The notes under the pieces are model-generated. The model did not search any database. It saw nothing but the letters and a program-made list of their open reading frames with translations, and was not told where the DNA came from. From assembly GCF_008041935.1 (NCBI RefSeq), contig NZ_VKAC01000005.1, positions 62,001 to 126,000 on the forward strand: a DNA stretch of 64,000 nt, given 5' to 3'. The DNA comes from Quadrisphaera setariae (GTDB lineage Bacteria > Actinomycetota > Actinomycetes > Actinomycetales > Quadrisphaeraceae). Positions 17,001 through 37,095 of this stretch are shown here, in pieces. Positions within the stretch are counted from its first letter, which is position 1, and every line of letters starts with the position of its first letter. The translations under genes and the position numbers were made by a program.

Positions 17001-17645
17001 CCGGCCGACCCCTTGGGCGTTGGCCAGTATGCTCCGAGCCTAGGGAACGGTGGGACGCTTTGGGTGGGTTCTGCCAAATCTGGGCGCGACCCATCCATCC
17101 TGGCCGGCGCCCTGGTACGACAGGCTTTCGGCGCGTACCTGGGACCAACGAGCGACTTGGGTCAGCGAGTCGCCCCGGCATGGCGCCCTCGCCCACGGCG
17201 CGGACGAGAGTTCAGCCCGAGGAGGAGGGACACCAGTGAGGCAATCTCCCACCGGGGAGGCGACCCAACAGGCCTCGTCTTGTTCGGTGGTTCCGCGACA
17301 CAAGCAGCGTTAGCCGGGAAAGGTGCCTATGCCGCACTGATGTTCCATCTAAAGCTGCGGTTCTTCTATGAGGGTGCAGCAAATGGAGGCGGCCGAATGT
17401 AGATTCCGCCAGTATGTATCTGCCGCAAGAGGGTACTTTCGCGGAGATGGGGCGATTGCAAAAAGTCCGACACGCTGCCGTTCCGACCTGAAAGACGTAA
17501 AAAGTCCTGCCAGCAGGGAACTAGAAGCGTTTCAGAGCCCGAGGTTGCTGAGTCGCGCTTCCCGACAACCAACCGCTGATGGACCACGCTAAAGTGATAG
17601 ACGCAAGACCACTGACTTTACGAGACCTACAACGATTGGTGGAAA
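17001..17645. other. Intergenic region of the imported polysaccharide locus
   Basis: These 645 bp separate the divergent WecG and pyruvyl-transferase genes. Several short frames are open on both strands, but none has a convincing protein composition or ribosome binding site. The first half is still GC-rich, and the second half (from about 17330) has the lower GC of the locus. The region should hold the promoters of both transcription units; I see no clear -35/-10 pair or repeat. Confidence 0.5.
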
Positions 17646-20041: not shown

Positions 20042-20657
20042 GAAACTTCTTAGAGCCGTTGTCATGAAAACTGGGAAAGGTGCGCAGGTCTGGCGCTATT
20101 GGGCTCACCCCAACGGAACTGAGTGGACGGCGTACGTGAAGAAGTGGGGCGGCCTCCAGCATATCGGGGAACATTGCAGCATAATTCCAGGCACAAAAAT
20201 CTTAGATCCAGCCTATGTCTGGTTGGGTGACAACGTTCATTTCTCGGCATGCGCTCTGATTGGTCATGATGGATCCATCGCAATGTTGAACAGAGCGTTC
20301 AACACGTCGCTGGAAGCAGTCGGTCCGATTATTATCCATGACAACGTCTTCATCGGCTATGGTGCCGTCATCCTGCCTGGCGTAACAATCGGTGCGAACA
20401 GCATCATCGCCGCAGGCGCGGTTGTTTCGAAGGATGTGCTAGAGAACTCCGTTGTAGGTGGGGTCCCCGCCCGAAAAATCCGAGGTACGGATGAGCTAGT
20501 CAAGCAGTATGAGTCAGACTTGGAGTCCCTTCCTTGGTCCGGTCTGATTCGTGAACGCGGAGTGAAGGGGTATGACGAAAGGTTAGAAGCAGAACTCATC
20601 TCGCAAAGAGTCGCTCATTTTTTTGGGAAGGACAAGAGCTCAAGGGAGACCCCGTGA
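20034..20657 (+). CDS. Hexapeptide-repeat acyltransferase (WbbJ/LbH type)
   Basis: A 207-residue left-handed beta-helix acyltransferase. Hexapeptide repeats run from about residue 45 to 150: GEHCSIIPGTKILDPAYVWL, GPIIIHDNVFIGYGAVIL, GVTIGANSIIAAGAVVSKDV and NSVVGGVPARKIRG. The His of the IGHDGS turn (residue about 82) is the likely catalytic base. Such enzymes O-acetylate a sugar of the repeat unit using acetyl-CoA. It overlaps the previous gene by 8 bp, consistent with one operon, and is of normal length for the family. Confidence 0.87.
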   Translation: MLKKLLRAVVMKTGKGAQVWRYWAHPNGTEWTAYVKKWGGLQHIGEHCSIIPGTKILDPAYVWLGDNVHFSACALIGHDGSIAMLNRAFNTSLEAVGPIIIHDNVFIGYGAVILPGVTIGANSIIAAGAVVSKDVLENSVVGGVPARKIRGTDELVKQYESDLESLPWSGLIRERGVKGYDERLEAELISQRVAHFFGKDKSSRETP

Positions 20658-20706
20658 TGGCTTGGCGGGGAGTCACGCTGAGCGAGTGCGGACAGACGGG
20701 TCGGCG

Positions 20707-21984
20707 GTGACGGGGACGCGCCGCGCCGTCTGGCGCTTTACTGACTCGCCGGCGATCTTAGTAGTAGCGCGTGTCAGTGGCCTAGCACTGGGCTTATTGT
20801 CCGCACCCTTGTTGGCCAGAGGTCTGTCGGTTGATGACCGTGGCACTTTCGCTGCAACGGCAGCCTGCCTGGCCGTTATCCCCGTTCTTGTAGGTTTGGG
20901 CCTCCCGACTGCAGTGCGACGCCTTGTTGCGGGAGGAGCTGAGGCGGCAGCTGTTTTGGGTTCCGCGCGTATCTTGATAGCCATCGCGAGTGTCTTTAGT
21001 ATCCTCCTAGGATGGCTTGCGGGGAGAACCTTGCTACCTGGCTTAACGGGCGCCGAGCATTGGGCGCTACTGGGTGCTTCCGCCTTAAGCGTTTTTCAAA
21101 TCTCTTGGGTATGCGAGGCCACGTCGCTTTCCGCCCAACAGAAATTTCGCAAGCTGGCAATCGTGAACCTTCTCCAACAGATCGTATTCGTATCAAGCGT
21201 GGCGACGCTATTTTGCTTCGGGGAGTTGTCGCTACTGAGGGCAATTTTGTCGTTCAGTTTTGCTACGGTGATTACCGCGGCGGCGGCGCCCTCGATCGCA
21301 CGGACTGGCCTTCGCCTGTCGCCCAGATTCGCTAAGCAACTTGCGCGTGACGGGCTTCGCTACACCGGGAGCGAAATTGTTGAGGTCGCGAACAATCGAC
21401 TCGACCAAGTGTTGATGCTGCCCGTGATCGGGGCTATCCAGGCGGGGTACTACGCGGTGGCAGTAACTCTGTCATCTCTACTAGTTGGTGTCGGGCAGAG
21501 CTTTGCTGCCGGATCTTTTAAGCAGTTTATGCAGGACCCCTTTGGCACAGCGGAGATTAGGCGTACGTTGAGCACTGCAACCCTAGTGAGTCTTCTTGGC
21601 GCGGCCATGCTCACCTGCATCGCGCCGTTCGCAATCCCCTTGGTTTTCTCGAGTGCTTATCGAGAGGCAACGCCGGTTAGCCTTGTATCTCTGATTGGAG
21701 CCTTCACTGTGGTGCCCTCCTCCGTAGGCGCAGCGCTCATGCTCGCAAGGGATCGCGCGCGAGCTTTGATGCTTTGTCAGTCAACCGGACTCGCCTGCGG
21801 GATTGGAACACTTTATGTTCTAGGGCCTCCGTTTGGAGCAACGGGAGCCGCCGCGGCTTCGACCCTGGGGTACATAGCCGCTGCCATTGCCATATTCTGG
21901 AGTCTTCGGGTTCCAGTGCGATGTTGGATCCCGTCGCCGGCGACGTTCAGATCGGGAATATCCGTGTTCGTCTACGGAAGGTAG
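20707..21984 (+). CDS. Wzx-like polysaccharide flippase
   Basis: An integral membrane protein of about 425 residues with twelve or more hydrophobic segments, of the MATE/MOP flippase superfamily. LLSAPLLARGLSVDDRGTFA near the N-terminus is the typical first-helix motif, and YTGSEIVEVANNRLDQVLML in the middle is the usual start of the second half. It moves the completed lipid-linked repeat unit across the cytoplasmic membrane. The start is uncertain. GTG 20707 overlaps a short frame ending at 20709, and the frame is open back to 20623; the extra residues are not hydrophobic, so I favour 20707. Confidence 0.85.
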   Translation: MTGTRRAVWRFTDSPAILVVARVSGLALGLLSAPLLARGLSVDDRGTFAATAACLAVIPVLVGLGLPTAVRRLVAGGAEAAAVLGSARILIAIASVFSILLGWLAGRTLLPGLTGAEHWALLGASALSVFQISWVCEATSLSAQQKFRKLAIVNLLQQIVFVSSVATLFCFGELSLLRAILSFSFATVITAAAAPSIARTGLRLSPRFAKQLARDGLRYTGSEIVEVANNRLDQVLMLPVIGAIQAGYYAVAVTLSSLLVGVGQSFAAGSFKQFMQDPFGTAEIRRTLSTATLVSLLGAAMLTCIAPFAIPLVFSSAYREATPVSLVSLIGAFTVVPSSVGAALMLARDRARALMLCQSTGLACGIGTLYVLGPPFGATGAAAASTLGYIAAAIAIFWSLRVPVRCWIPSPATFRSGISVFVYGR

Positions 21985-21993
21985 ATCCTAAAA

Positions 21994-22959
21994 ATGGTGG
22001 GGCAAGCAAGTAGCGGAGTCACTACCGTTTGTATCGTTGTCAATTACTTCTCTTCGACAATGATTGAGCGCTGCCTTGAGGCGATGCTGACAGAACTCCC
22101 GAACCGCATAGTCATCTACGACAATAGTTGTGACGAGTCAGAGTACCAAAATCTTGAAAGACTCAAACTCGGGTATCATAACCTGGAGGTTTTGCGTGGT
22201 GCGAAGAATCTGGGATTCGGGGCGGGCGTTAACGCTGCGATAGGCCACACCGCGCAATACGAACCATGCATCTTCTGGGTGCTTAATCCAGACGCTGTCC
22301 CACAACCTGGTTGCCTGAATGCGTTGCAAGAAGCGGTCGAGGCAAATGAGATGTGCCTTGTGTCATCAGTCGTATCATTTGGAGAAACCCCAACCGCGGA
22401 TCAGAGTATTTGGTTTTATCGTGGCGGCTATGATCTGATCGCTGGAAAGGTATGGCACGACGATTTCCGCGCTCCTCTTAACAAAATGCTCGAAAGTCAA
22501 CCCAAAACCTGGACGACGCCTTTCCTCCCAGGAACTTCGTTCGCTACCAATCTTGAGACGTGGGAGCGTCTTGGAGGTTTTCGGGAAGACCTATTTCTTT
22601 ACTGGGAAGATGTCGAGCTGTGCGAAAGAGCGCAGAAGTCGAGTATCAAGACGCTTGTAGCCCGTGATGCTCTCGTATGGCACGGAGAGGGTGGGACAAC
22701 AAATTTTGGCGAGGATGGCCACAGTAAGACTTACTATTACTGGATGAACAAGAATAGGTATGTGATTTCAGGTACACACAGCGGGCGCAAGTTTGTCGGC
22801 AACCCTGCGGTTGCATGGGAGACTTTCAAATGTATCTCCCGCCCCCTTTTGACTCCGCAGAAAGATCGATTAGGGAAGACCTGGTCGGCCATTCGCGGCA
22901 CCAAAGACGGAATAATGGCACTGCTGTGGCCGCCAAGGCCATCCGAAGTAAGCAAGTAA
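21994..22959 (+). CDS. GT2-family glycosyltransferase (rhamnosyltransferase-like)
   Basis: A 321-residue inverting glycosyltransferase. It shows VCIVVNYFSSTMIERCLEAM, IVIYDNSCDES, LRGAKNLGFGAGVNAAI, FWVLNPDAVPQPGCL (N-P-D in the DXD position), FLPGTSFATNLETWERLGGF and LYWEDVELCERA. The GFGAGVN and LYWEDVEL signatures are typical of the rhamnosyltransferase-like branch. It acts in the cytoplasm on the lipid-linked intermediate. The gene follows the flippase after 9 bp and belongs to the same low-GC operon. Confidence 0.87.
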   Translation: MVGQASSGVTTVCIVVNYFSSTMIERCLEAMLTELPNRIVIYDNSCDESEYQNLERLKLGYHNLEVLRGAKNLGFGAGVNAAIGHTAQYEPCIFWVLNPDAVPQPGCLNALQEAVEANEMCLVSSVVSFGETPTADQSIWFYRGGYDLIAGKVWHDDFRAPLNKMLESQPKTWTTPFLPGTSFATNLETWERLGGFREDLFLYWEDVELCERAQKSSIKTLVARDALVWHGEGGTTNFGEDGHSKTYYYWMNKNRYVISGTHSGRKFVGNPAVAWETFKCISRPLLTPQKDRLGKTWSAIRGTKDGIMALLWPPRPSEVSK

Positions 22960-22980
22960 TTACGGAGGAGATCGCGCGAG

Positions 22981-24045
22981 TTGGGACTGGATCATATGAA
23001 GATACTGCAGATTGTGACTCAACTTGAGCGGGCAGGGGCTCAGACTTTCGCTGCCTGGCTGGAAAAGACCTTATCTGAGCCCGGTGCGGGGGTTTCCGCA
23101 CAAACAAGATTCTTTTACCTTAAGCAAGAGAGCGATCTCTTCTCGGCCGTCAACTGCTATGTTAAAGGGAAGCCATCGAAGCCGGGTCAATTAATAGAAA
23201 TGTTGCGGCTGTTTCGTCGAGATGTGAGCAGCTGCGATATTACCATTTGCCACACTCATTACTCGATAGCCCTTACGTATTTAATCTTAATGACCATACC
23301 TCGCAAGCGTCGGCCCAGTGTAATTTCCGTTCATCATTGGCCGCTTGACAGGTATCCTAATTGGGTGCAAGCGCTTCTAAGGTTCCGTTGGCTGCGTCCA
23401 AGAAGAGTTATCGAGGTGTCCGTCGCCGACGACCTAGTCGAAGGAAGCACGGTGATCTACAACCCGGTCCCTCGCGGCGAGAGCTTGCGTGACAGCGGTG
23501 CTGGGGTACTCGGCCCCAGTTTTGACCTTATTGCTGTCGCTCGCCACAGCCATGAGAAGGGTCTAGATACGCTCATCAATGCACTTGGGCGTCTACCGGA
23601 TCGTCACCTGACGCTCTTCGGATCGGGAGCATTGACTGAGGACCTCGTAAAGCTCGCGCAGAACACTGGCGTCGCTTCTAGGGTGACTTTCGCTGGGTCA
23701 CGACCGCGCCCCGATGTCCTGGGGGCAATGTCGCGATGCCGCACTCTCGTCATGCCTTCAAGATGGGAGGCCATGCCGATGTCTCTCTTGGAGGCGGTTT
23801 CCGTTGACTCCCCCATAGTATTAAGCGATATTGCCGCCCACCAGCGATTTATTGAATTTGGTGCAGGCGTGCCATTCAGAGTTGACGATGACGTCGACCT
23901 CGCCAATGCGATAGAAGCGTGTGGCCGGGCGGTGGTCCAGGCGCAACTGGTTAATGGTCGGAGCAGGCTTCGGGCGGAGCAGTCAGAGTCTGTAATTGGG
24001 CGGTCCTGGCTGTCACTGGTGAAGTCGCAAGGTGGGGTGGCGTGA
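22981..24045 (+). CDS. GT4-family glycosyltransferase
   Basis: A retaining glycosyltransferase of about 354 residues. It shows MKILQIVTQLERAGAQTF at the N-terminus, HTHYSIALTYLIL, SVHHWPLDRYPNW, FDLIAVARHSHEKGLDTLIN and the EX7E motif in SRWEAMPMSLLEAVSV. The ribosome binding site GGAGGAG (22964-22970) is 10 bp before TTG 22981 but 25 bp before ATG 22996. TTG may therefore be the true start, although the protein family normally begins at the MKIL methionine. Its stop overlaps the polymerase start (GTGATG). It is part of the same operon. Confidence 0.85.
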   Translation: MGLDHMKILQIVTQLERAGAQTFAAWLEKTLSEPGAGVSAQTRFFYLKQESDLFSAVNCYVKGKPSKPGQLIEMLRLFRRDVSSCDITICHTHYSIALTYLILMTIPRKRRPSVISVHHWPLDRYPNWVQALLRFRWLRPRRVIEVSVADDLVEGSTVIYNPVPRGESLRDSGAGVLGPSFDLIAVARHSHEKGLDTLINALGRLPDRHLTLFGSGALTEDLVKLAQNTGVASRVTFAGSRPRPDVLGAMSRCRTLVMPSRWEAMPMSLLEAVSVDSPIVLSDIAAHQRFIEFGAGVPFRVDDDVDLANAIEACGRAVVQAQLVNGRSRLRAEQSESVIGRSWLSLVKSQGGVA

Positions 24046-25565
24046 TGTCCCTCCAAAGAGGTCCCAAGTATCTGTACTACACTTTCGTGGCAATCGCCGT
24101 TTTCCTTGTGGGCATTCTTGTAGGAAGAAGTGCGCTTGGAGTTGTTCTCTTCGTACTGCTTGGCGCAGTGTTTCTGCTGTTGCTATTGCGGCCGATGCTC
24201 TGGTTCCACGTCACTCTCGTCTCGGCGTTCTTGGCGAGCCCGACATTGTTCCCGTATGGCTTACCCATTGGGGTCACCGTCTATGTATATGAACTGACCT
24301 TGGCGGGCAGTCTCATATTCGGGCTGCTTCTGCTGCGGCGACCTAAACATGCAAGCACATCTATGCCATGGGTGATTGAAAACAAACAGGTCACTACTTC
24401 TTTGAAGCTCTACTGGACGCCAATGGTTGCAGTGGTAATATTTGGCGTACTAAGTGGACTAATTAGAGGCTACGACAAGTTTGAAGTGCTAGGCGATATG
24501 CGCACCACATATGATGTTGCTGGCGGTGCTGCATTCGTTGTTTTAGCCGCAAGGTTGGGCTTCCTCAGGAAGCTAGGCCAGACCTGGCTGTACGTCATGA
24601 TTGCTTCTGCCCTCCTGATTACTCTTTCGAGCGCGACGGGGTTCCCTCTGAATGGCCGTTCGCTGAGCGCCCAACTCTATCGGGCTGGAGGTGGGATGCT
24701 TGGTGCCCAAGCAAGTGCCAATCGTATTCTTACACCTACGACCGCCGCAGCCCTCGCAACTCTAGCTTTTATTGTTGCCGCCTCTGTGCGAGGTGTGCGC
24801 ATTCCATATTCACAGAGCCTTCTGCGAGTGGCGACGATTGCTTGCATTTTGATTTCATTCTTCAGTTTCTCGCGGAATGCTCTTCTTGCGCTTGGGGCGT
24901 CACTGCTGACGGCTACTCTAGTGTGTCTCATTTCAGGTAAGTTCAAGATCGTCTTGAGGGCCAGCATGCGGGTGACGCTCATTGCCGTCGGAACGCTGGC
25001 AACATTTGCTGCGTTTGCTTTTTTGCCCCTGGGAAACTCTTTCGTTGGTGCTCAGATCTCCGCCTACTCAGAGAGAGTGGTAGATGGTCTGTCGCCTTCG
25101 TCGCGGGCTGATGACTCATCTACCCAGGATCGCTTGCAGGAGGATCGTTACATGGCAGCAGGTATCCGACAGCATTCGATTGTTGGATCAGGCTTCGGGT
25201 TTGCCTACAAACCTGCCATGGGTCCTGCAAATGAGTTTGCTGCCGACCAAGGCCGTTTCTATGCTCATAATTTCCATCTGTGGGTTCTACTCAAGACGGG
25301 AGTATTAGGTCTCGGCGCGTGGACTTTGCTGAACCTAGGTCTGACCGTTAGAGCGATGATGGGTTGGGATAGCGGACTTGGTGTTGCGCTGGCGGGAACC
25401 TCGGTGGCCTTTCTTGCCGTTATGGCAGTTTCTCCCACGCCTTTGGACTTCCCGGGATCGCTGTTATATGGGCTTCTTGTTGGCCTCCTCTTGATAGTTG
25501 GGAATCGAGGGAAGTCGACGCTTCCAATGGTTCGTGCTCGTTCGTCGCAGCTGGCTAGGTTGTAG
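24042..25565 (+). CDS. Wzy-like O-antigen/exopolysaccharide polymerase
   Basis: A 507-residue protein with about twelve membrane helices. A large periplasmic loop lies between SERVVDGLSPSSRADDSSTQ and GPANEFAADQGRFYAHNFHL. The loop motif IVGSGFGFAYK together with AHNFHLW is the Wzy_C/O-antigen ligase signature, with the essential His in AHN. It joins flipped repeat units into polymer at the outer membrane face. Translation starts at GTG 24042 or ATG 24045, overlapping the previous stop. This is the last gene of the low-GC operon; the following 150 bp return to high GC before the IS701-family element. Confidence 0.85.
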   Translation: MMSLQRGPKYLYYTFVAIAVFLVGILVGRSALGVVLFVLLGAVFLLLLLRPMLWFHVTLVSAFLASPTLFPYGLPIGVTVYVYELTLAGSLIFGLLLLRRPKHASTSMPWVIENKQVTTSLKLYWTPMVAVVIFGVLSGLIRGYDKFEVLGDMRTTYDVAGGAAFVVLAARLGFLRKLGQTWLYVMIASALLITLSSATGFPLNGRSLSAQLYRAGGGMLGAQASANRILTPTTAAALATLAFIVAASVRGVRIPYSQSLLRVATIACILISFFSFSRNALLALGASLLTATLVCLISGKFKIVLRASMRVTLIAVGTLATFAAFAFLPLGNSFVGAQISAYSERVVDGLSPSSRADDSSTQDRLQEDRYMAAGIRQHSIVGSGFGFAYKPAMGPANEFAADQGRFYAHNFHLWVLLKTGVLGLGAWTLLNLGLTVRAMMGWDSGLGVALAGTSVAFLAVMAVSPTPLDFPGSLLYGLLVGLLLIVGNRGKSTLPMVRARSSQLARL

Positions 25566-25712
25566 AACTTCTTTTGAAATGATGTGCCGTGTGTTGGCTC
25601 TTCGTGTTCGGGAGTCCAAGCGGTGTTGCCCCGGTAATGAGGCAGAGGTCGAGGTCTGCGGGAGCGGGTAAGTCTCACGCCAGCCGCCGAGAGGACCTCG
25701 ACGTCTTCGACG

Positions 25713-27289
25713 CTTAGTACTGCAGCCGTAGATCGTTACTGAGCGTGGGACCCGATGACCAGCAGGAACGGTCGCCGCGCCAGCATCGGTAGGTGTGTGG
25801 ACTACTGACGAAAACGCGACGACCGCATGGCCAGCGTAGGAGTGGCCGCCTTCGCGCGGCACCTGGACGACCTCGGGAGGCGGATCGCTGAGCATGCTGC
25901 GCGGCCCGAGACCCGTGAGCGGATCCCGAAGGTCATCGCCGCACTCGCCGCGGACCTGCCGACCAAGAACGCCTGGACGATCGCCGAGCACGCCGGGGAA
26001 GACGACCCCCACGGAGTGCAGCACCTGCTGAACCGGGCCTCCTGGGATGAGGACGTCGCCAGCGAACAGCTGGCCGGCTTCATCGCCGACTACCTCGCCG
26101 ACCCAGACGCGATCCTGATCGGCGATGAGACCGGGGACATCAAGAAGGGCACGGCCACCGTCGGGGTACAGCGCCAGTACACCGGCACCGCGGGTAGGAC
26201 CGAGAACGCCCAGGTCGCGGTGTACCTGGCCTACGCCACACCTCGCGGTCACGCCCTGGTCGACCGGGAGGTGTACCTGCCGGCCTCCTGGACCGAGGAC
26301 CGGGGACGGTGTGAGCGGGCCGGTGTGCCGCAGGAGGTGGATTTCGCCACCAAGCCGACGCTGCTGGGCGACATGGTCGAACGCGCCCTGGCCGGCGGCC
26401 TGCCGGCCTCGTGGGTGACGGCCGATGAGGCCTACGGCGGGGACCCGAAGCTGGCCAGGCGCCTGGAAACCCTGTCCGATGCGCGCGTCCAGGACGACGA
26501 GCAGGGCCTGGGGTACGTGCTGGCGATCTCCGCCACGCGCAAGGTGCCGATCACCGCGACGACGTCGCGGCCCGCGTCGCGGGTGGCAGCTGACCTGCCC
26601 AAGCGGTCCTGGCAGAGGCGCTCGGCCGGCGCTGGTGCGCACGGTCAGCGGGTGTACGAGTGGGCCCAGGTGGACCTGCACCCGCGGATCACCGAGAAGC
26701 CGAACTCCGCGCCACGGGTCGGTGGCAAGGACGGGCGGCCGACGCACTCGAAGGCGTGGGCGGCGATGCTGGAACGCACCACCGAGCGTGCCCGGGCCCG
26801 CGGGCATCGGTGGTGGCTGCTGGTGCGCCGCAACCCCAGAACCGGCGAGATGGCGTACTACTTGGCCTTCGCGCCGAGGCCGGTGCCGCTGGCGGCGTTG
26901 GTGGCGGTGGCGGGGCGGCGCTGGGCGATCGAGGAGTCCTTCCAGGCGTCCAAGGGTCTGACCGGCCTGGATGAGCACCAGGTGCGCCGGTGGACTTCCT
27001 GGCGGAGGTGGACGTTGCTGGTGATGGCCGCCCACGCGGTGCTGGCGATCGCGACGCTGACCGCCAGGGCCCGCGACCGTGACGTCGCTCGACGTGAGGG
27101 ACTGATCCCGTTGACGTGCGCGGAGATCCGCCGGCTGGTCGTCGCTGCGGCACATCGCGTGGTCGAGGTGGCCTTCATCGAGGCCTGGTCCTACTGGAGA
27201 CGCCGGCACCAAGACAGAGCCCGGACCAGCCACTACGCCGCCCGGGGGCAGGTCCCGCCGACGAAATGATCTACGGCTGCAGTACTAAG
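25713..27289 (+). mobile_element. IS701-family insertion sequence
   Basis: CTTAGTACTGCAGCCGTAGA (with TC following) at 25713-25734 is the exact complement of 27268-27289, giving 22-bp perfect terminal inverted repeats. The similarity continues imperfectly outward (TTCGACG at both ends). The single transposase gene stops inside the right repeat. The left part (25735-25826) is the untranslated leader. The right end lies only 11 bp from the stop of the LCP gene. I could not assign an unambiguous target duplication. Confidence 0.85.
25827..27269 (+). CDS. IS701-family transposase
   Basis: A 480-residue DDE transposase of normal family length, with no frameshift. The catalytic blocks are AILIGDETGDIKKGTATVGV (first Asp, in the ETG context typical of IS701), ASWVTADEAYGGD (second Asp) and RRWAIEESFQASKGLTGLDE (Glu, Y(2)R(3)E(6)K-like signature). 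GC content matches the high-GC chromosome rather than the low-GC locus to its left. The element therefore seems to have been acquired or spread separately from the polysaccharide genes. It is probably active. Confidence 0.92.
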   Translation: MASVGVAAFARHLDDLGRRIAEHAARPETRERIPKVIAALAADLPTKNAWTIAEHAGEDDPHGVQHLLNRASWDEDVASEQLAGFIADYLADPDAILIGDETGDIKKGTATVGVQRQYTGTAGRTENAQVAVYLAYATPRGHALVDREVYLPASWTEDRGRCERAGVPQEVDFATKPTLLGDMVERALAGGLPASWVTADEAYGGDPKLARRLETLSDARVQDDEQGLGYVLAISATRKVPITATTSRPASRVAADLPKRSWQRRSAGAGAHGQRVYEWAQVDLHPRITEKPNSAPRVGGKDGRPTHSKAWAAMLERTTERARARGHRWWLLVRRNPRTGEMAYYLAFAPRPVPLAALVAVAGRRWAIEESFQASKGLTGLDEHQVRRWTSWRRWTLLVMAAHAVLAIATLTARARDRDVARREGLIPLTCAEIRRLVVAAAHRVVEVAFIEAWSYWRRRHQDRARTSHYAARGQVPPTK

Positions 27290-28852: not shown

Positions 28853-29974
28853 TCAGCGACGCTGTTGCGAGGCCAGCAGGGCCACCGTGAAGGCGGTCGC
28901 GCCCTGCAGCGTGGTCGGGTCCGTGCCGGTCAGCTCCCGGATGCGCGACAGGCGGTGCCGCACCGAGTTGACGTGCAGGTACTGAGACCTGGCGACGCTC
29001 ACCAGCGAGCCGTCGGCGGCGAGGAAGGCGCGCAGGGTGTCGAGCAGGCCGGAGTCGCGGCGGCGGTCCGCCTCGGCGAGGGGACGCAGCAGCGCGTCGA
29101 CGAACGGCGCGAGCACCTCCGGCGGCTGCCCCGCCACGAGCGCGGCGAGCGTGGCCCTGCCGCGGGCCGCGCCGATGGCCTCGGCGGCCTGCGCGGTGAG
29201 CGCGGCGGCCAGCTCGGCGCGGGCGCGCCGCAGGGCGGCGCCCAGCTCGCGCCACGGCGTGGGCCCGACCGCACCCCACGGCACGTCGAGCTCGTCAGCG
29301 ATGGTGGCGAGGTCGAGGTCGTCGGAGGTCACCAGCAGCACCGCCTCGCCCTCGGTGGCCAGGAGGTGCGGCGCGGCGGCCACGGCCAGCGCCAGGTCGC
29401 GCGCGGCGCCGAGCGGCCACGCGGAGGCCCTCAGGTGGGCGCGCCCCAGGCCGGCGTCCACGAGCGCCGGCAGCATCGCCTCGGGCGCCAGCTGCCCCTC
29501 GGTGAGCAGCTCCAGCAGCTGCCCGGCCCGGCCACCCGCCACCGCGGCCCGCACCCGCAGCGAGGCCAGGTGCTCGGTGAGCCCCATGAACGGGGTGCCC
29601 GGCCCGGCCACCAGCAGCGCCAGGCCGTGCGCGGCGCACCCGGCGAGGAGGGCCGGCGGCACCTCGGCGTGCACGTCACCCACCCCGAAGCAGACCCCCA
29701 CCGACCCCGCACCGCCCACGGCGGCGGTGAAGGCGGCGCACGCGTCGTCGTCGTCCAGCGCCTGGCCGACGGTGCAGACCAGCTCCCCACCGCGCAGGTA
29801 GGGGGAGGGGTCCACCAGCTCGGTGGCGTGCGCCCAGCGCACCGCCGCGCCCGCGACGCCCGGCAGCAGCGCGGTGAGCCCCAGCGACGGCTCGGCCACC
29901 AGCTCCGCGACGGTCGGCCCGGTGTCCTCCGCGGCCTGCCCGCCGGCGCCGGCACTCCTCAGCACCCGCAGCAC
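28853..29974 (-). CDS. PucR-family transcriptional regulator
   Basis: A 373-residue regulator. The N-terminal PucR domain covers about residues 20-130 (LRGGELVCTVGQAL, ALLVAGPGTPFMGLTEHL). A GGDEF-like middle follows, and the C-terminal PucR helix-turn-helix is clear: LRAFLAADGSLVSVARSQ, LHVNSVRHRLSRIRELTG. PucR proteins often control catabolism of purines, amino acids or polyamines in response to the substrate. It is transcribed away from the permease operon; the 168-bp gap holds an 18-bp palindrome. This arrangement strongly suggests that it regulates that operon. Confidence 0.85.
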   Translation of the reverse strand: MLRVLRSAGAGGQAAEDTGPTVAELVAEPSLGLTALLPGVAGAAVRWAHATELVDPSPYLRGGELVCTVGQALDDDDACAAFTAAVGGAGSVGVCFGVGDVHAEVPPALLAGCAAHGLALLVAGPGTPFMGLTEHLASLRVRAAVAGGRAGQLLELLTEGQLAPEAMLPALVDAGLGRAHLRASAWPLGAARDLALAVAAAPHLLATEGEAVLLVTSDDLDLATIADELDVPWGAVGPTPWRELGAALRRARAELAAALTAQAAEAIGAARGRATLAALVAGQPPEVLAPFVDALLRPLAEADRRRDSGLLDTLRAFLAADGSLVSVARSQYLHVNSVRHRLSRIRELTGTDPTTLQGATAFTVALLASQQRR

Positions 29975-30008
29975 GCTACGGCCCGTCCGGGCTGATCAGA
30001 GCGCACCC

Positions 30009-30026
30009 GTTGGAGGTTCCTCCAAC
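30009..30026 (+). promoter_or_regulatory. Perfect palindrome in the PucR/permease divergent promoter region
   Basis: GTTGGAGG at 30009-30016 and CCTCCAAC at 30019-30026 form 8-bp arms separated by 2 bp. It lies 35 bp from the regulator start and about 117 bp from the permease start. It is too compact for a terminator and is the best candidate operator for the PucR-type protein. Confidence 0.5.
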
Positions 30027-30142
30027 CGCCGCCACCGCGCTGGGGGTGGGCACGACGTCAGCGGCCAGGGGGTGTCGCTGCGGCGGGTGTCGGGCCACGG
30101 TGACCACACACCCCGCCCGACCAGCACGTGCAGGAGGTCACC

Positions 30143-31627
30143 GTGAGCACCACCGCCACGCCCCCCATCGGCTCAGCTCCTGCCACCGAGCTCAAGCGCG
30201 AGTTCACGCTGTGGAGCTCGTTCGCCTTCGCCTTCGCCTTCATCAGCCCGATCGTGGCGCTGTACGGCATCTTCGGCCTGGCCATCAGCACCGCCGGGCC
30301 TGCCTTCTGGTGGACCTTCCTCATCGTCTTCGGCGGGCAGCTGCTCGTGGCCCTCGTCTTCGCGGTGCTGGTCTCCCGCTGGCCCCTGGAGGGCTCGATC
30401 TACCAGTGGTCGCGCGGCCTGCTCGGCACCGGGTACGGCTGGTTCGCCGGCTGGGCCTACCTGCTGACCCTGGTCATCGCCATGACCACCGTCGCCCTCG
30501 GCGCCGCCGGCTTCGTGGCGGACATCGTCGGGCTGCCCTCGGCCACCAGCGGCCAGAAGGCGCTCATCGCCCTCGCCATCCTCGTGGCCGGCACCCTGCT
30601 CAACCTCGTCGGCCGGGTGGCGCTGAAGGTGTTCCTCACCGCCTCCATCGCCGCCGAGGTCGTCGGCTCGCTCGGCCTGGGCACCTGGCTGCTGCTCTTC
30701 CACCGCGAGCAGCCGGTCAGCGCGCTGCTGCACGGCATCAGCACCGACGGCGGGGGACCGGCCTACCTGGCCCTGTCCGGCCCGTTCCTCGTGGCCATGG
30801 GCTACGTCGCCTTCTCCTTCGTCGGCTTCGAGAGCGCGGGCTCCATCGCCGAGGAGGTCCGCGAGCCCCGGCGCGACGTCCCCCGCGCGGTGATCCTCAG
30901 CCTGACGCTCATCGCCGCCGTCGTCATGTACTCCGCCGCCGCGATCATCCTGGCCATCCCCGACCTCGACGCCGTGCTCGACGGCACCGACGGAGACCCG
31001 GTCTCCTCCACGCTCACCACGCAGCTCGGCGCGGGGGTCGCCACCCCGGTGGAGGTCCTCTTCGTCATCGGCTTCCTCGCTTCCTTCCTCGCGCTGCAGA
31101 CCTCCGCCAGCCGCGTGGTGTGGGCCTACGCCCGCGATCGCGCCCTGCCCGGCGGCCGGGTGCTCTCCCGCCTCTCGCCCGGCACGGCGCAGCCCTCGGT
31201 GGCGCTGCTGCTGGTCTCCGGCGTCGGCGCGCTCCTGCTGCTGCTCAGCCTCGTGGCCGGCGACGTCTACACCCTGATGATCAACTTCACGACCGGCGGG
31301 TTCTACGTCGCCTTCCTCTTCCCCCTGCTCGGCTTCGTGGTGGTGCAGCTGCGCGGCCGCTGGCGCGCCGGGCCCTTCACCCTCGGGCGCGGCACGCTGC
31401 CGGTCTCGGTGGTCGCGGCGGTGTGGGCGCTGTTCCAGCTCTTCAACATCGCCTGGCCGCGCCCGGTCAACGAGCAGCGCTGGCTCGACTGGTCGGTGTG
31501 GATCGCCGTGGGGATCTTCGCCGTCATCGGCGCCGCCCTCTACGCATCCGTGCGCCGCCACGTGGCCCCCGCGGCCACCCCTGACGAGGAGGCCGCCGCG
31601 GTCGCCCACGAGGGGGCGGGACGATGA
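30143..31627 (+). CDS. APC-superfamily amino acid/amine permease
   Basis: A 494-residue transporter with about twelve membrane helices. The N-terminal signature FTLWSSFAFAFAFISPIVAL and the later GFESAGSIAEEVREPRRDVP (the APC loop with the conserved E and PR) define the family; the whole resembles the GABA/polyamine or choline permease branch. GTG 30143 follows AGGAGG at 30132-30137. It opens a tightly coupled operon: its stop overlaps the ATG of the first SDR by 4 bp. It probably imports the nitrogen compound degraded by the downstream enzymes. Confidence 0.9.
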   Translation: MSTTATPPIGSAPATELKREFTLWSSFAFAFAFISPIVALYGIFGLAISTAGPAFWWTFLIVFGGQLLVALVFAVLVSRWPLEGSIYQWSRGLLGTGYGWFAGWAYLLTLVIAMTTVALGAAGFVADIVGLPSATSGQKALIALAILVAGTLLNLVGRVALKVFLTASIAAEVVGSLGLGTWLLLFHREQPVSALLHGISTDGGGPAYLALSGPFLVAMGYVAFSFVGFESAGSIAEEVREPRRDVPRAVILSLTLIAAVVMYSAAAIILAIPDLDAVLDGTDGDPVSSTLTTQLGAGVATPVEVLFVIGFLASFLALQTSASRVVWAYARDRALPGGRVLSRLSPGTAQPSVALLLVSGVGALLLLLSLVAGDVYTLMINFTTGGFYVAFLFPLLGFVVVQLRGRWRAGPFTLGRGTLPVSVVAAVWALFQLFNIAWPRPVNEQRWLDWSVWIAVGIFAVIGAALYASVRRHVAPAATPDEEAAAVAHEGAGR

Positions 31628-32340
31628 CCGGCGTGGACGGACGCGTCGCCCTGGTCACCGGAGCGGCCTCCGGCATCGGCGCCGCCTGCGCAGCGTCGCT
31701 CAGCGCCCGCGGGTGGCGCGTGGCGGGCCTCGACCTCGCGGCGCTGCCCGACGGGTCGCCCTGCGCGGTCGGCGTCGCCGTCGACATCGCCGACCCCGCC
31801 GCCGTCCGCGCCGCCGTCGACCACGTCGTGCTGCAGCTGGGACCGGTGGAGGCCGCCGTGCACGCCGCCGGCCACTACGCCGAGATCCCCTTCGAGCAGA
31901 CCACCACCGAGCAGCTGCACCGCATGCTGCGCGTGCACCTCGGCGGCGCGCTGCACGTGCTGCAGGCCGTGCTGCCCGGCATGGTCGAGCGGGGCGACGG
32001 CGCCGTCGTGGCCATCAGCAGCGAGCTCGCCGTCGGCGGGGGCGGCGCCGGAGACGCCGCGTACTCCGCCGCCAAGGGCGCCGTGCTCGGCCTGGTCCGC
32101 AGCACCGCCGCCGAGGTGGCACCGCACGGGGTGCGCGTCAACGCCGTCGCTCCCGGCCCCACCGACACCCCGCTGCTCGCCCCCGACTCCCCGTGGCGCG
32201 CCCCCGACTACCTCGCCACCCTCCCCACCCGGCGCCTCACGACACCGCAGGAGGTGGCGCGCTGCGCCGTGTGGCTCCTCGAGGAGGGCACCTACGCCGT
32301 CGGCGAGGTCCTCAACCCCAACTCCGGAGCGGTGATCTGA
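31624..32340 (+). CDS. SDR-family NAD(P)-dependent oxidoreductase
   Basis: A 238-residue short-chain dehydrogenase. It shows the dinucleotide motif VTGAASGIGAAC, a catalytic Ser in VAISSELAVG, the active-site YSAAK in AAYSAAKGAVLGL, and VRVNAVAPGPTDTPLL. It belongs to the classical SDR type of normal length. The ATG lies inside the permease stop (ATGA). Its substrate is unknown; in this context it may oxidise or reduce a carbonyl/hydroxyl intermediate of the imported compound. The second SDR starts 1 bp after its stop. Confidence 0.88.
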   Translation: MTGVDGRVALVTGAASGIGAACAASLSARGWRVAGLDLAALPDGSPCAVGVAVDIADPAAVRAAVDHVVLQLGPVEAAVHAAGHYAEIPFEQTTTEQLHRMLRVHLGGALHVLQAVLPGMVERGDGAVVAISSELAVGGGGAGDAAYSAAKGAVLGLVRSTAAEVAPHGVRVNAVAPGPTDTPLLAPDSPWRAPDYLATLPTRRLTTPQEVARCAVWLLEEGTYAVGEVLNPNSGAVI

Positions 32341-32341
32341 C

Positions 32342-33130
32342 GTGACCGCCACCAGCAGCCCCAGCGCCCCGGCCGACAGCCGCGGCAGGGTCGCCCTCGT
32401 CACCGGCGCCGCCGGCGGCATGGGCGGCGCGCACGCCCGGCGCCTGGCCGCCGACGGCTGCACCCTCGCCGTCGCCGACCGCACCCTCACGCCCGCGCTG
32501 CAGGCGCTCGCCGACGAGGTCGGGGGAGCGGCCTTCGCCGCCGACCTCGCCGACCCCACCGCCCCGGCGGCCCTCGTCGCGCAGGTGCGCGAGCGCCTCG
32601 GCGACGTCGACGTGCTCGTCGCCAACCACGCCCACATGACCATGGGGCCCACCGCCACCGTGGCGCCCGCGGACTTCTGGTCCGTGGTCGACGTCAACCT
32701 CGCCGCCACCTTCGCCCTCGTCCAGGCCGTGCTGCCGGGCATGGAGCGGCGCGGGGGCGGGCGCGTCATCGTCGTCGCCAGCGAGTGGGGCCTGACCGGC
32801 TGGCCGGAGGCCGCCGCCTACGCCGCCTCCAAGGCCGGCCTCGTGGCGCTGGTGAAGACCCTCGGGCGCGAGCTCGGCCCGCGCGGGGTGCTGGTCAACG
32901 CCGTCGCGCCCGGCGTCATCGACACCCCGCAGCTGTCCGTCGACGCCGCCGCGGCGGGGGTGAGCGACGAGCAGGTCCGCGCCGACTACGCCGCCGTGAC
33001 GCCGCTGCGCCGCATCGGCGCGCCCGAGGAGGTGGCGGCAGCGGTGTCGCTGCTGGCCGACCCCGCCCTCGGCGCGGTGGTCGGGCAGGTGCTGCAGGTC
33101 AACGGCGGGACGACGAGGGGACGAGCATGA
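32342..33130 (+). CDS. SDR-family NAD(P)-dependent oxidoreductase (second copy)
   Basis: A 262-residue classical SDR. It shows [20 protein letters not shown] for cofactor binding, [12 protein letters not shown] where NNAG is usual, the Ser in [24 protein letters not shown] for the catalytic Tyr and Lys, and [17 protein letters not shown]. It is clearly diverged from the preceding SDR, so the two probably catalyse different steps. It starts at GTG 32342, and its stop overlaps the ATG of the ureohydrolase by 4 bp. Confidence 0.88.
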
Positions 33131-34140
33131 GCGCAGACGCACCGGGGACGACGGCGGCTGCACGGCCAGCGGAGCAGCCGCCCGTGGGGCAGGTCGACGC
33201 CACGGTGGTGCCCCGCTACGCCGGGCTCACCACCTTCGCGCGGCTGCCGCGCCGCGAGGACGTGCCCGCCCACGACGTCGCCGTGCTGGGCGTGCCCTTC
33301 GACGCCGGCGTCACCTACCGGCCCGGCGCCCGGTTCGGCCCGAGCGCCATCCGCGAGGCCAGCCGCCTGCTCAAGCCGTACAACCCCGCGCAGGACGCCG
33401 CCCCCTTCGCGCTGGCGCAGGTGGTGGACGCCGGCGACGTCGCCGCCAACCCCTTCGACCTCACCGAGGCGCTGGCGTCGGTCGAGGCCGCGGTGCACGA
33501 CCTCACCGACGACGGTCGCTCCGTGGTGCTGCTCGGCGGTGACCACACCATCGCCCTGCCGTCGCTGCGGGCCCTGGCCCGGCGCCACGGCCCGCTCGCG
33601 CTGGTGCACTTCGACGCCCACCTCGACACCTGGGACACCTACTTCGGCGCGCCGTGCACCCACGGCACCCCGTTTCGCCGGGCCTCGGAGGAGGGCCTGC
33701 TGGTCAAGGACCGCTCCGCCCACGTGGGCATCCGCGGCTCCCTGTACGACCGCGCCGACCTCCTCGACGACGCCGTGCTCGGCTTCACCGCCATCCACTC
33801 CCGCGACGTCGACGACATCGGCGTGCGTGGCATCGTCGAGCGGGTGCGCCAGCGCGTGGGCGACCACCCCGTCTACATCAGCGTGGACATCGACGTGCTC
33901 GACCCGGCCTTCGCGCCCGGCACCGGCACCCCCGAGGCGGGCGGCCTGACCAGCCGCGAGCTGCTGGCCGTGCTGCGCGGCCTCGCCGACCTGCCGCTGG
34001 TCGGCGCGGACGTGGTGGAGGTGTCCCCGGCCTACGACCACGCCGAGGTCACCGCCGTGGCGGCGGCGAACGTCGCGTACGAGCTGGTCACCGCTCTGGC
34101 CCTGAGGTCTGCGGCCCTGCAGAAGGCGGCCCGGCGGTGA
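33127..34140 (+). CDS. Agmatinase/ureohydrolase-family enzyme
   Basis: A 337-residue binuclear manganese hydrolase. All six metal ligands are visible: H140 (LLGGDHT), D163, H165 and D167 (HFDAHLD), and D254 and D256 (SVDIDVLDP), followed by [27 protein letters not shown]-like sequence near residue 65 ([17 protein letters not shown]) is shared by agmatinases and guanidinobutyrases. The enzyme should release urea from a guanidino compound. Substrate choice (agmatine, guanidinobutyrate, guanidinopropionate or another) cannot be decided here. It is coupled by 4-bp overlaps on both sides. Confidence 0.88.
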
Positions 34141-35030
34141 GCCGGCTGCCCCCGCCGCTGCCCTGGCCCGGTGGGGCACGCGCCGCGGCGTCGTTCACCT
34201 TCGACCTCGACGCGGAGTCGGGCCTGCTGTGGGAGTCCTCCGCGGTGGCCGCGCGCGCCAGCGTCATCACCCACCAGTCCTACGGCCCGCTGGTGGGGCT
34301 GCCGCGCCTGCTCGACCTGCTGGAGCGCCACCGCGTCCGCTCCACGTTCTTCGTGCCGGGGTGGACGGCCGAGCGCTACCCCGGCGCCGTGCGCGACGTC
34401 GTGGCCGCCGGCCACGAGGTCGGCCACCACGGCTACCTCCACGAGCAGCCCTCCGCCCTCACCGCCGAGCAGGAGGCGACCGCGCTCGACAGGGGCCTGG
34501 AGGCGCTGGAGGCCGTGGCCGGGGTCCGGCCCGTCGGCTACCGCGCGCCCATGTGGGACGCCTCCTGGCGGACGGCCTCGCTGCTGGCCGAGCGCGGCTT
34601 CCTCTACGACTCCTCCCTCATGGACGCCGACACCCCCTACGAGCTGGCGGTGCCGGCTGGCGACGGGGACGACGACGGCCAGCCGACGTCGTCGTCCATC
34701 GTCGAGGTGCCGATCCACTGGGCCCTGGACGACTGGGAGCGCTACGCCTACCTGCCCGACCTCGTGGGCAGCGGCCTCATCGAGGCGCCGGCCGTGGCGC
34801 GGGCGGTCTGGGAGGCCGAGCTGGACGGGCTGCGCGACGCGGGCGGGTGCTGGGTGCTGACCTGCCACCCCTTCCTGTCGGGGCGTCCGGGCCGGGCGAT
34901 GGAGCTGGGGCGGCTCATCGAGCGGGTGGTCGGCATGGACGACGTGTGGCTGGCGCCGCTGGAGGACGTCGCGCGGCACGTGCGGTCGCTGGGCCTGCCG
35001 CCGCGGACGCTCACCCCGCCGCAGGTCTGA
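34137..35030 (+). CDS. Polysaccharide-deacetylase-fold hydrolase (PuuE-like)
   Basis: A 297-residue NodB-fold enzyme. The metal site is [13 protein letters not shown] at about residues 20-32 plus HHGYLHEQ (H-x3-H); [12 protein letters not shown] and [13 protein letters not shown] complete the fold. The FDLDAE signature belongs to the subgroup that includes allantoinase PuuE and HpPgdA rather than to true chitin or peptidoglycan deacetylases. In PuuE the enzyme opens a cyclic ureide. Together with the ureohydrolase and PucR-type regulator this points to degradation of a cyclic or ureido nitrogen compound. It starts inside the previous stop (GTGA) and is the last gene of the operon. Confidence 0.82.
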
Positions 35031-35241
35031 GCGGGGAAGCTCTCTCGCCGGCGCCACTCACTGCTACCGCGGGCCGGTACTGCGTCGGCACCGTGCAGGG
35101 GCCGGCAACCTTCGACCGCCAGGTCGCTCGTGGACGCGGACTACTCCGTTCGGGTGAACTTCGAGTCGCGAGAAACGCTGCCTTGTGCAGGGGCTCTGCA
35201 CGCGCGTTCGACTGTCGGTGGTGGTCTCTAGCGTCAGCTGC

Positions 35242-37095
35242 ATGACCTGGACCGGCTCCGAGGCGCCCCATGGAGGCGCCTCCGACGCTGCCGGTCTGGG
35301 CGGCGGAGGTGGCTGGATCCCCGAGCGGCTGCCGCCCGGGGCACTCGGCGCCGACACCCGCTCCGCGGACCACGGCGACGTCGATGGCGCGCTCTTCGCC
35401 GACCTGCCCCCGCTGCCGCTGACCGGCCCACTGGCCGACGCCCTGTCCGCCGCCCGCACCGCGGCGGAGAGCGCCGCGCAGGCTTCGTGCTACCTGGCCT
35501 CCACTGAGCCCGATCAGCGCCTCGATGCTCTGCGTCAGACCGCCACCACCCGCGACCTGCTCGACGCGACGCTGCTGCGGCTGGTCAGCTCCTTCACCCC
35601 CGAGCAGGTCCGTGCCGTCGGGGCGACGTCGCTGACCGATCTCGTGCTCACCCACACCGGAGCAGACCCGAAGCGAGCAGCCACCGAGGTCAGGCTCGCC
35701 ACCGCACTCACCGCCCCCGTGACACCCGTCTCCGCAGACGACGGCCCTGACGGTGTCGATGGCCATGGCGCACCCGACGGCGCTGGCGGCCCCTCGGCCG
35801 GGTCCTCCGCCGTGGCCCTGGGACGGGTGGGAGCCGCCCATGCTGCGGGGGAGCTGTCCACCGACGTCGCGGCCCTGGCCCAGCGCACCGTCGCAGACCT
35901 GCCCGCTCGCGTGCGCCGCGAGCAGGGCACCCACGCTGACGCCTCCCTGGCTGAGCTGCTGCCGGGCCTGACCCACGCGCAGGCGCGCATCGTGTGCACC
36001 ACCCTGGCCCACCGGCTCGACCCGGACCGCGCCGACCGCGGCTTCGACCCCGACGACATCGACAAGCGCAACCTGACCATCACCGTCCACGCCGACGGCA
36101 GCGTCGACATCCGCGGCCACTTCGACCCCGTTGCCGGCGCGGCGATCAAGGCCGCCATCGACCACCACTCCAAGCCCGACCCCACCGTGCACGCGCCCCT
36201 CGCCGACCAGCAGGAGCCGCTGCCCGGCCTGGACACCGACCGCACCGCAGGACGTGGCGACGGCGACGGCGATGCCGGCACCCGGGAGACCACCGAGCGA
36301 GTGCCGCCGAAGGCCGGCGTGCCCGTGCGTGATCCGCGCACCGCAGGGCAGCGCCGCGCCGATGCGCTGAGTCACCTGGTCCGCTCCGGGGTCGCCGGTG
36401 ACCACACCCGCTCCACCGAGGGCGCCCGCGTCATCGTCACCACCACCGATGCCGCCCTGCGCGGAGAGGCGGGCGCCGAGCCCGCCCACTGCGAAACCAC
36501 TGATCGGCCGCTGACCACCGCCCAGCTGCGGGTGGTGGCCTGCTCCGGAACCCTTCAGGCCGTCCGCCTCTCGTGCGAGGGTGCCGACGCGTCGGCGCTG
36601 TCGCTGGGGCGGGCAGTGCGCCTGTTCAGCGCCGGTCAGCGCCGGGCGATGCTCGCCCGTGACGGCGGGTGCGCGATCCCCGGCTGCACCGCCCCGCCCG
36701 GGTGGCTCGAGGCCCACCACGTGCACGAGTGGGTGGCGGGTGGGCCCACCGACGTGGACTGGGGCGTGCTGCTGTGCACCCGCCACCACGTGCTCGTCAC
36801 CCTGGGCATCTGGGCGGTCCGCATGGTGGACGGGGTCCCGCACGTCCGACCACCACGCGCCGTCGACCCCTTGCAGCGGTGGGTGCTCAACCCTCGCCGG
36901 GGGCTACGGCAGCGGACGCTCGACCGCGTCGGTGCATCCGGCTGCGGATCTCCGCCGCCCGGGCGATCGTCATCGCCACCGGGCGCGGCGCCTTCACCAC
37001 CTGGAGTGCCGCTCGGTCTGTTCGATCCACCGGAGCCGCCCGTCGACGCGGGCTGCCCCGACATCCCCTCGCGCCACGGCACCTGCGGCTGCTGA
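35242..37095 (+). CDS. DUF222 and HNH endonuclease-domain protein
   Basis: A 617-residue protein. A DUF222 region covers roughly residues 50-440 (TATTRDLLDATLLRL, AAHAAGELSTDVAALAQRTV, LTITVHADGSVDIRGHFDPV). A C-terminal HNH domain follows: RAMLARDGGCAIPGC, WLEAHHVHEWVAGGPTD, WGVLLCTRHHVLV. This is the actinobacterial 13E12-type layout, which is often present in many copies and linked to mobile DNA; the biological role is unsettled. I chose ATG 35242, since the frame upstream to 35185 looks non-coding. The Pro/Ser-rich tail after LNPRRGLRQRTLDR is variable in this family. Confidence 0.88.
   Translation: MTWTGSEAPHGGASDAAGLGGGGGWIPERLPPGALGADTRSADHGDVDGALFADLPPLPLTGPLADALSAARTAAESAAQASCYLASTEPDQRLDALRQTATTRDLLDATLLRLVSSFTPEQVRAVGATSLTDLVLTHTGADPKRAATEVRLATALTAPVTPVSADDGPDGVDGHGAPDGAGGPSAGSSAVALGRVGAAHAAGELSTDVAALAQRTVADLPARVRREQGTHADASLAELLPGLTHAQARIVCTTLAHRLDPDRADRGFDPDDIDKRNLTITVHADGSVDIRGHFDPVAGAAIKAAIDHHSKPDPTVHAPLADQQEPLPGLDTDRTAGRGDGDGDAGTRETTERVPPKAGVPVRDPRTAGQRRADALSHLVRSGVAGDHTRSTEGARVIVTTTDAALRGEAGAEPAHCETTDRPLTTAQLRVVACSGTLQAVRLSCEGADASALSLGRAVRLFSAGQRRAMLARDGGCAIPGCTAPPGWLEAHHVHEWVAGGPTDVDWGVLLCTRHHVLVTLGIWAVRMVDGVPHVRPPRAVDPLQRWVLNPRRGLRQRTLDRVGASGCGSPPPGRSSSPPGAAPSPPGVPLGLFDPPEPPVDAGCPDIPSRHGTCGC

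Follow-up and report, generated by a model that had tools for sequence, protein, structure and literature searches.

The stretch of DNA analyzed here (the window, 64,000 nucleotides of Quadrisphaera setariae contig NZ_VKAC01000005.1, positions 62,001 to 126,000) carries at 28853–35030 a six-gene unit in which a ureohydrolase of the arginase family is followed by a hydrolase of the NodB fold, together with two short-chain dehydrogenases (SDR1 and SDR2), a permease and a pucR-type regulator. That the ureohydrolase-NodB unit is real and recurrent can be said with near certainty: its composition, its recurrence, the pairing of different ureohydrolase lineages with NodB and a conserved palindrome ahead of the permease gene were all observed directly. 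We tentatively read it as a catabolic unit under PucR control through which nitrogen (and carbon) is drawn from a small guanidino compound; we hold this scheme, taken whole, to be slightly less probable than an even chance. The end of the proposed route, from a guanidino acid to beta-alanine and urea, is better supported than its beginning.

The regulator (28853–29974, minus strand, 373 aa, GTG start) matches PF07905 with 57.7 bits and PF13556 with 58.3 bits, both over the cut-off, and is divergent from five genes on the plus strand. These encode an APC-family permease (30143–31627, 494 aa, AGGAGG ahead of a GTG start; PF13520, 140.8 bits), SDR1 (31624–32340, 238 aa; PF13561, 149.5 bits, and also PF00106), SDR2 (32342–33130, 262 aa, GTG start; PF13561, 175.6 bits, and also PF00106), the ureohydrolase, a predicted guanidino-acid hydrolase (33127–34140, 337 aa; PF00491, 329.8 bits, cut-off 22), and the NodB-fold hydrolase, a putative amide or ring opener (34137–35030, 297 aa; PF01522, 67.8 bits, cut-off 23.1). 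All six genes were present where the initial annotation had placed them and the Pfam families agreed; its description of genes joined mostly by 4-bp overlaps holds for three of the four internal junctions (permease/SDR1, SDR2/ureohydrolase and ureohydrolase/NodB), the gap between SDR1 and SDR2 being 1 bp.

A search with a NodB alignment gave at least 513 confirmed relatives, the best 80 of which were retained as loci; these are best matches with no random draw, and they are not independent because many mycolicibacteria are among them. Genes in the foreign loci were called with a codon-score caller, and counts of PucR and of neighboring genes combine gene calls with blast clusters within 9 kb of NodB. 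The ureohydrolase is present in 77 of the 80 loci (76 matches above 70 bits, plus a 45-residue fragment at a contig edge in L053) and in 75 is the gene immediately upstream of NodB, in the same orientation. By tblastn, SDR1 was found in 74 loci, SDR2 in 75, the permease in 72, PucR in 63 and all five plus-strand genes in 71, and the gene calls and blast clusters put a PucR gene no further than 9 kb from NodB in 70 loci. The nearest named genome, Quadrisphaera granulorum (locus L047), harbors the same six genes in the same order with 77–93% identity, the ureohydrolase and NodB proteins of Q. granulorum DSM 44889 being 92–93% identical to those of the window. This recurrence of the gene set supports the earlier proposal of a unit dedicated to a single pathway, and a chance neighborhood was rejected on account of the 80 loci and of trees that suggest repeated pairing.

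At the scale of the phylum, an even draw of 198 Actinomycetota genomes contained the NodB protein in 27 (E <= 1e-30) and the ureohydrolase in 45 (E <= 1e-60). Both genes lie on one contig within 15 kb in 3 of the 198, this genome included (G000, G053 and G127, compared by eye); the unit is therefore patchy and not universal. It also occurs on plasmids outside the actinobacteria, with the order ureohydrolase-SDR-SDR-NodB in Roseovarius, Shinella, Gemmobacter and Ensifer, and ureohydrolase-NodB-NAD oxidoreductase-SDR in Pseudomonas aeruginosa. Among 11 hand-picked NodB plasmid records (of 208 that matched), six have a ureohydrolase beside NodB and five lack it, and none of five further hand-picked ureohydrolase records (of 105 that matched) has NodB beside it. 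In two Acidimicrobiia loci (L102 and L107) the set is reduced to an NCS1-type permease, the ureohydrolase and NodB; such minimal sets point to a small heterocycle that NodB would open before the ureohydrolase acts, and they fit a nucleobase-like substrate that needs no oxidation.

Trees of the two hydrolases suggest that different ureohydrolase lineages have been paired with NodB more than once. In the ureohydrolase tree (72 sequences, cluster members thinned) 30 actinomycete cluster enzymes group together (89/91, not a starred branch), beside and not inside the ureohydrolases of other contexts, and the enzymes of Rubrobacter, L034, L126, the alphaproteobacterial lineage and the GpuA-type enzyme of Pseudomonas are placed elsewhere. 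The label "in a NodB cluster", carried by 35 Actinomycetota rows, requires at least five changes forced by starred branches, one of them due to a divergent second copy in L034 on a very long branch, and five Gram-negative cluster rows need two changes. In the NodB tree (51 sequences) the label "with ureohydrolase" needs at least six changes, some of the loci labelled as lacking it being short contigs. Losses may account for some of the changes in these counts, and long branches affect some rows, including the Pseudomonas NodB. The occurrence of a GpuA-type enzyme with a NodB of another branch in the same two-gene order is nevertheless hard to explain without a shared reaction sequence.

The gap between pucR and the permease gene holds an inverted repeat with 8-bp arms and a 2-bp center, GTTGGAGGTTCCTCCAAC (30009–30026), which is a candidate PucR operator. 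A 16-mer derived from it and its relatives was found with at most two mismatches in 38 of 55 such intergenic regions, the window included, where dinucleotide shuffles expect about 0.2 of 55, a count to be read knowing that the same data served to derive the pattern and that the rows are related and mostly mycolicibacterial. The matches include Quadrisphaera, Nanopelagicales, Microlunatus and Cryobacterium, and 17 of the 55 gaps are without one. A second near-palindrome, GATGGAGGATCCTCCTAC, lies at 19564–19581 of the window and differs from the candidate operator by at most three mismatches. From the divergent gene and the conserved palindrome we infer that PucR controls the operon, as had been proposed in the initial annotation.

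The ureohydrolase carries the metal motifs of its family (GGDH, DAHxD and DIDxxDP at residues 137, 163 and 254), which align with those of 3nip, 3nio and 1gq6; its top solved relatives are 3nip (guanidinopropionase), 1gq6 (proclavaminate amidinohydrolase, PAH) and 3nio (guanidinobutyrase). In GbuA, Arg72 from the neighboring subunit is able to contact the substrate carboxylate, according to PMC9772407. The corresponding column holds Lys in the window enzyme and, across 76 cluster enzymes (those left of 79 gene calls once three of at most 240 aa had been removed), 38 Lys, 37 Arg and one Leu, the last belonging to the divergent L034 copy; SpeB and 4dz4, both agmatinases, have Ala and PAH has His. 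The column of Trp68, the agmatine contact of SpeB, is a gap in the window enzyme and also in the agmatinase 4dz4. Additionally, the ureohydrolase of the Pseudomonas plasmid cluster is 87% identical to GpuA, a 3-guanidinopropionase. With evidence on both sides (agmatinase models are passed), the window enzyme looks like a guanidino-acid hydrolase rather than an agmatinase, which changes the earlier label "agmatinase-family enzyme". The release of urea from a guanidino compound, also part of that annotation, is favored by the basic residue and by the GpuA-type relative.

The NodB-fold protein contains the FDLDAE motif, and D23, D25, H98, H102, R136, D198, D199 and H244 are invariant in 34 rows; a metal-dependent hydrolase is therefore expected. 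No signal peptide is apparent at its N-terminus by inspection. The closest solved relative is 3rxz (353 bits, 52–56% identity). An AlphaFold model with a mean pLDDT of 84.2 (loops 47–49, 177–182, 199–205 and 211–214 below 50) gave Z scores of 37.5 to 3rxz and of 29–31 to 3s6o, 3qbu, 1z7a and the PuuE structure 3cl6, the other enzymes of carbohydrate esterase family 4 reaching 21.4 and lower. The model thus places NodB with the PuuE/cyclic imidase branch of the fold. The protein fails the PuuE family model TIGR03212 (75.4 against a cut-off of 424.6 bits), and identity as a PuuE allantoinase was rejected for this reason: the "PuuE-like" of the first description is retained for the fold branch and lost for the family. 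PMC10967932 describes 3rxz, 3qbu, 1z7a and 3s6o as lacking functional characterization and raises the question of whether two of them, 1z7a and 3s6o, are allantoinases like PuuE. Among NodB relatives without a ureohydrolase, the neighbor is a C-N hydrolase in L044 and a member of the asparaginase family in L045, which may again represent an opening step followed by an amide hydrolase. In L132, L135 and L127 the neighbors are amidases with urea carboxylase-associated proteins, or M24 creatinase-like proteins with an ectoine-type transporter.

Both SDRs seem to be of the NAD type by inspection of the cofactor motif, and their sequences are uninformative on the substrate: the best 25 NCBIfam matches of each fall below the cut-off, and the closest solved structures belong to SDRs of the FabG type, of the glucose/ribitol dehydrogenase type and to unnamed ones. 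In SDR1 the YxxxK residues Tyr147 and Lys151 are conserved in more than 93% of 77 rows, as is His105, at the position where classical SDRs have their catalytic Asn. The permease fails the urea-carboxylase permease model TIGR03428 (197.9 against 740.45 bits).

A precedent for the combination of such enzymes is found in the nicotinate breakdown of Aspergillus (PMC9304392). There HxnW (polyol-dehydrogenase-type/SDR-type) first oxidises a hydroxyl group that neighbors the ring nitrogen; HxnM, a cyclic imidase akin to the NodB-fold 3qbu, then cleaves the ring, and the amide hydrolase HxnN acts last. Transferred to the operon, this order would have the SDRs form a cyclic acyl-guanidine for NodB to open, with the ureohydrolase as the final enzyme. 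The fungal system differs in that it acts on an imide and has an amide hydrolase where the operon has a ureohydrolase. Together with the structural neighbors of the model, the HxnM precedent supports the ring or amide opening by NodB foreseen in the initial annotation.

In the proposed scheme, the permease would import a guanidino compound, whose alcohol the SDRs would oxidise to an aldehyde that closes to a cyclic hemiaminal; a second oxidation by the SDRs would turn this hemiaminal into a lactam of the cyclic acyl-guanidine kind, for example dihydroisocytosine. NodB would hydrolyse this lactam to a guanidino acid, most likely 3-guanidinopropionate, from which the ureohydrolase would release beta-alanine and urea. 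Candidate genes elsewhere in this genome could complete the route, an omega-aminotransferase and a malonate-semialdehyde dehydrogenase leading to acetyl-CoA and a urease using the urea. The natural substrate, the SDR steps and the order of the steps are what we infer from these comparisons, and we consider the SDR chemistry doubtful, with a likelihood of about a third. It is likewise possible but doubtful that the unit is a guanidino parallel of reductive pyrimidine breakdown, running through a dihydroisocytosine-type acyl-guanidine and assembled several times independently in actinobacteria, alpha- and gammaproteobacteria.

Beta-alanine is the likely end product judging from genes that adjoin the clusters. 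A class III aminotransferase and a dehydrogenase of the methylmalonate-semialdehyde dehydrogenase (MMSDH) type adjoin several unrelated clusters, and the pair of a transaminase and MMSDH takes beta-alanine to acetyl-CoA, according to PMC4907197. MMSDH exceeds the TIGR01722 cut-off in the clusters of Cryobacterium (L068), Rubrobacter (L037, the Rubrobacter radiotolerans cluster by its sequence identity with L130) and Geodermatophilaceae (L114). In the Pseudomonas plasmid cluster the omega-aminotransferase passes the AptA model (704.7 bits, cut-off 500) and an MMSDH is annotated. The Quadrisphaera genome itself encodes urease (alpha subunit, 874 bits) and holds MMSDH pieces at contig ends, one of them beside an aminotransferase 63% identical to that of L068. 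All of its MMSDH matches are below the cut-off, in our opinion because the pieces are truncated. Four contig ends of the genome (C13, C20, C24 and C25) bear MMSDH pieces with pairwise matching spans and scores; a duplicated MMSDH may therefore have broken the assembly.

Several results weigh against this guanidino scheme. The window ureohydrolase passes the agmatinase equivalog model TIGR01230 (237.8 against a cut-off of 174.3 bits) and also PRK02190; its identities are undecisive (GpuA 47%, PAH 45%, 4dz4 45%, GbuA 44% and SpeB 43%), and in the tree it belongs to a clade that is separate from the GpuA/GbuA group and is joined to the agmatinases SpeB and 4dz4 with weak support (90/69), so that the enzyme may be said to work like the GpuA/GbuA type without being a member of it. 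The GpuA-type evidence comes from another lineage than the window ureohydrolase. The Arg72 column is basic (Arg) also in all 20 non-cluster actinobacterial relatives fetched (out of 54 places), and the residue therefore marks a guanidino acid and is not specific to this pathway; conversely, the cluster ureohydrolases of the separate alphaproteobacterial lineage lack it in four of four cases. These enzymes (L128, L129, L134 and L136) have an inserted loop at the substrate-contact position, and in Roseovarius a GpuA-like copy, 58% identical, is also nearby. The beta-alanine genes are infrequent as neighbors, the aminotransferase being in range in 7 of the 80 loci and MMSDH in 3, with neither beside the window cluster. 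Additionally, SDR1, SDR2 and NodB occur without a ureohydrolase in L105, L110 and L111 (in L110, which has a low GC content and is poorly called, the SDRs and NodB are known from tblastn alone), showing that these three can work with something other than a ureohydrolase. A formamidase gene follows pucR in 9 of the 10 loci with a Rieske oxygenase and is unexplained by the urea scheme, and neither dihydroisocytosine nor 3-guanidinopropanol is, to our knowledge, a common soil compound.

The alternative that survives best takes the enzyme for an ordinary agmatinase or guanidinobutyrase acting on compounds derived from arginine; NodB would then deacylate an N-acyl form such as hydroxycinnamoyl agmatine, and the product would be putrescine or gamma-aminobutyrate. 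We regard this explanation as unlikely, if still a serious contender. The agmatinase models and the weak branch toward SpeB and 4dz4 speak for it, as do genes near relatives of the enzyme: the second ureohydrolase of this genome (L046 9322–10497, G000:C4), 67% identical to that of the operon, is followed by a flavin amine oxidase, a plasmid relative is adjoined by an amine oxidase and a C-N hydrolase, and some non-cluster relatives adjoin polyamine-ABC-transporter-like genes by inspection. Amine oxidase and C-N hydrolase neighbors are the expectation for an arginine oxidase route to guanidinobutyrate. However, the dehydrogenases tested beside clusters have MMSDH, and not succinate-semialdehyde dehydrogenase, as their best model in three of three cases, the two SDRs and the NCS1 versions would be superfluous, the modelled NodB structure groups with hydrolases of small cyclic amides, and the position of the GbuA Arg72 contact is basic in 75 of 76 cluster enzymes and Ala in the agmatinases SpeB and 4dz4. 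A related arginine route, through 1-amidino-2-pyrrolidinone to 4-guanidinobutyrate, was also tried; its chemistry fits and MMSDH does not, and it was set aside.

Less probable again, and quite unlikely in our estimation, is that no guanidine is involved and that the ureohydrolase acts like a formimidoylglutamase on an amino acid bearing an N-formimidoyl (or acetimidoyl) group, which it would split off as formamide (or acetamide), NodB having first opened an imidazole or pyrimidine ring that was already hydroxylated. This explanation draws on the loci in which a Rieske oxygenase follows NodB (10 of 80: L115–L117 and L119–L125, its reductase being called in nine): the nine formamidases there are of the FmdA type and these loci fall in two kinds of genomic neighborhood, one gene of each type having been scored (for the formamidase, that of L115, 698.2 bits against a cut-off of 500). 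NCS1 permeases and, once, a CodA-type cytosine deaminase also adjoin ureohydrolase-NodB pairs. On the other hand, no such formamidase clusters within 9 kb in the other 71 of the 80 loci, the Pseudomonas version uses a GpuA-type guanidinopropionase, and the window ureohydrolase fails the formimidoylglutamase HutG model TIGR01227 (154.9 against 229.15 bits), agmatinase models being passed. The Rieske oxygenase and the formamidase suggest that either the precursor is hydroxylated or a variant of the pathway releases formamide.

It is highly improbable that NodB is a carbohydrate or cell-envelope deacetylase of the glycosyltransferase region at about 38.6–55 kb that merely adjoins a catabolic operon: its polysaccharide deacetylase match (PF01522) with catalytic residues and the glycosyltransferase-like open reading frames (ORFs) after the operon would allow this, but the 4-bp overlap with the ureohydrolase, the cytosolic-looking start, the same adjacency in 75 of 80 loci across genera and the pairing in several lineages argue against it. 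Pathways of the pantothenate, vitamin B6 and thiamine-pyrimidine (hydroxymethylpyrimidine, HMP) types were dropped, as the ureohydrolase had no role in them or the genes needed were not seen.

Compared with known systems, the window ureohydrolase shares with GpuA and GbuA of P. aeruginosa (and human GDAH/AGMAT) the family, the di-metal motifs and a basic residue at the Arg72 position, and differs in being 44–47% identical and outside their clade; we know of no gpu or gbu system with a NodB hydrolase or an SDR pair. PuuE allantoinase is, similarly, a ring-opening amidohydrolase of the NodB fold (Z 29.2, 26% identity to NodB) whose family model NodB fails. Reductive pyrimidine catabolism opens a six-membered ring and releases a beta-amino acid that goes to malonate semialdehyde. 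The proposed route would be alike in the ring opening and the beta-amino acid, but with a guanidino instead of a ureido intermediate, and dihydropyrimidine dehydrogenase, dihydropyrimidinase and beta-ureidopropionase are not among the six genes by Pfam. No description of this gene set, or of a route through the candidate intermediates, was among the top literature matches, subscription journals lying mostly outside the search; this agrees with the earlier remark that no described pathway of exactly this composition was recognised and lends weak support to novelty. The suggestion of a special natural product as target found no result pointing to it. An "agmatinase", msmeg_4459, is induced by nitrogen limitation according to PMC4617892.

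Regarding the surroundings of the operon, the ORF directly 3' of it (35185–37095) resembles a protein of the HNH/DUF222 repeat family by inspection, and the glycosyltransferase-like ORFs further downstream were likewise labelled by inspection. Upstream, a transposase-like ORF (25827–27269, by inspection) lies beside a stretch of lower GC (16000–26000); the three 4-kb segments between 16001 and 28000 have GC contents of 0.58, 0.55 and 0.64, and all others 0.70–0.77.

How microbes break down guanidino compounds, which form a pool of nitrogen, is understood only in part. If the proposed route is true, many "agmatinase" and "polysaccharide deacetylase" annotations in soil actinobacteria would be misnamed, and the opening of an acyl-guanidine ring would add a new reaction to those catalysed by the NodB fold. 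For the family of 3RXZ, the Mycobacterium smegmatis NodB structure that has been without a known role, the analysis also offers a candidate function and a limited set of test compounds.

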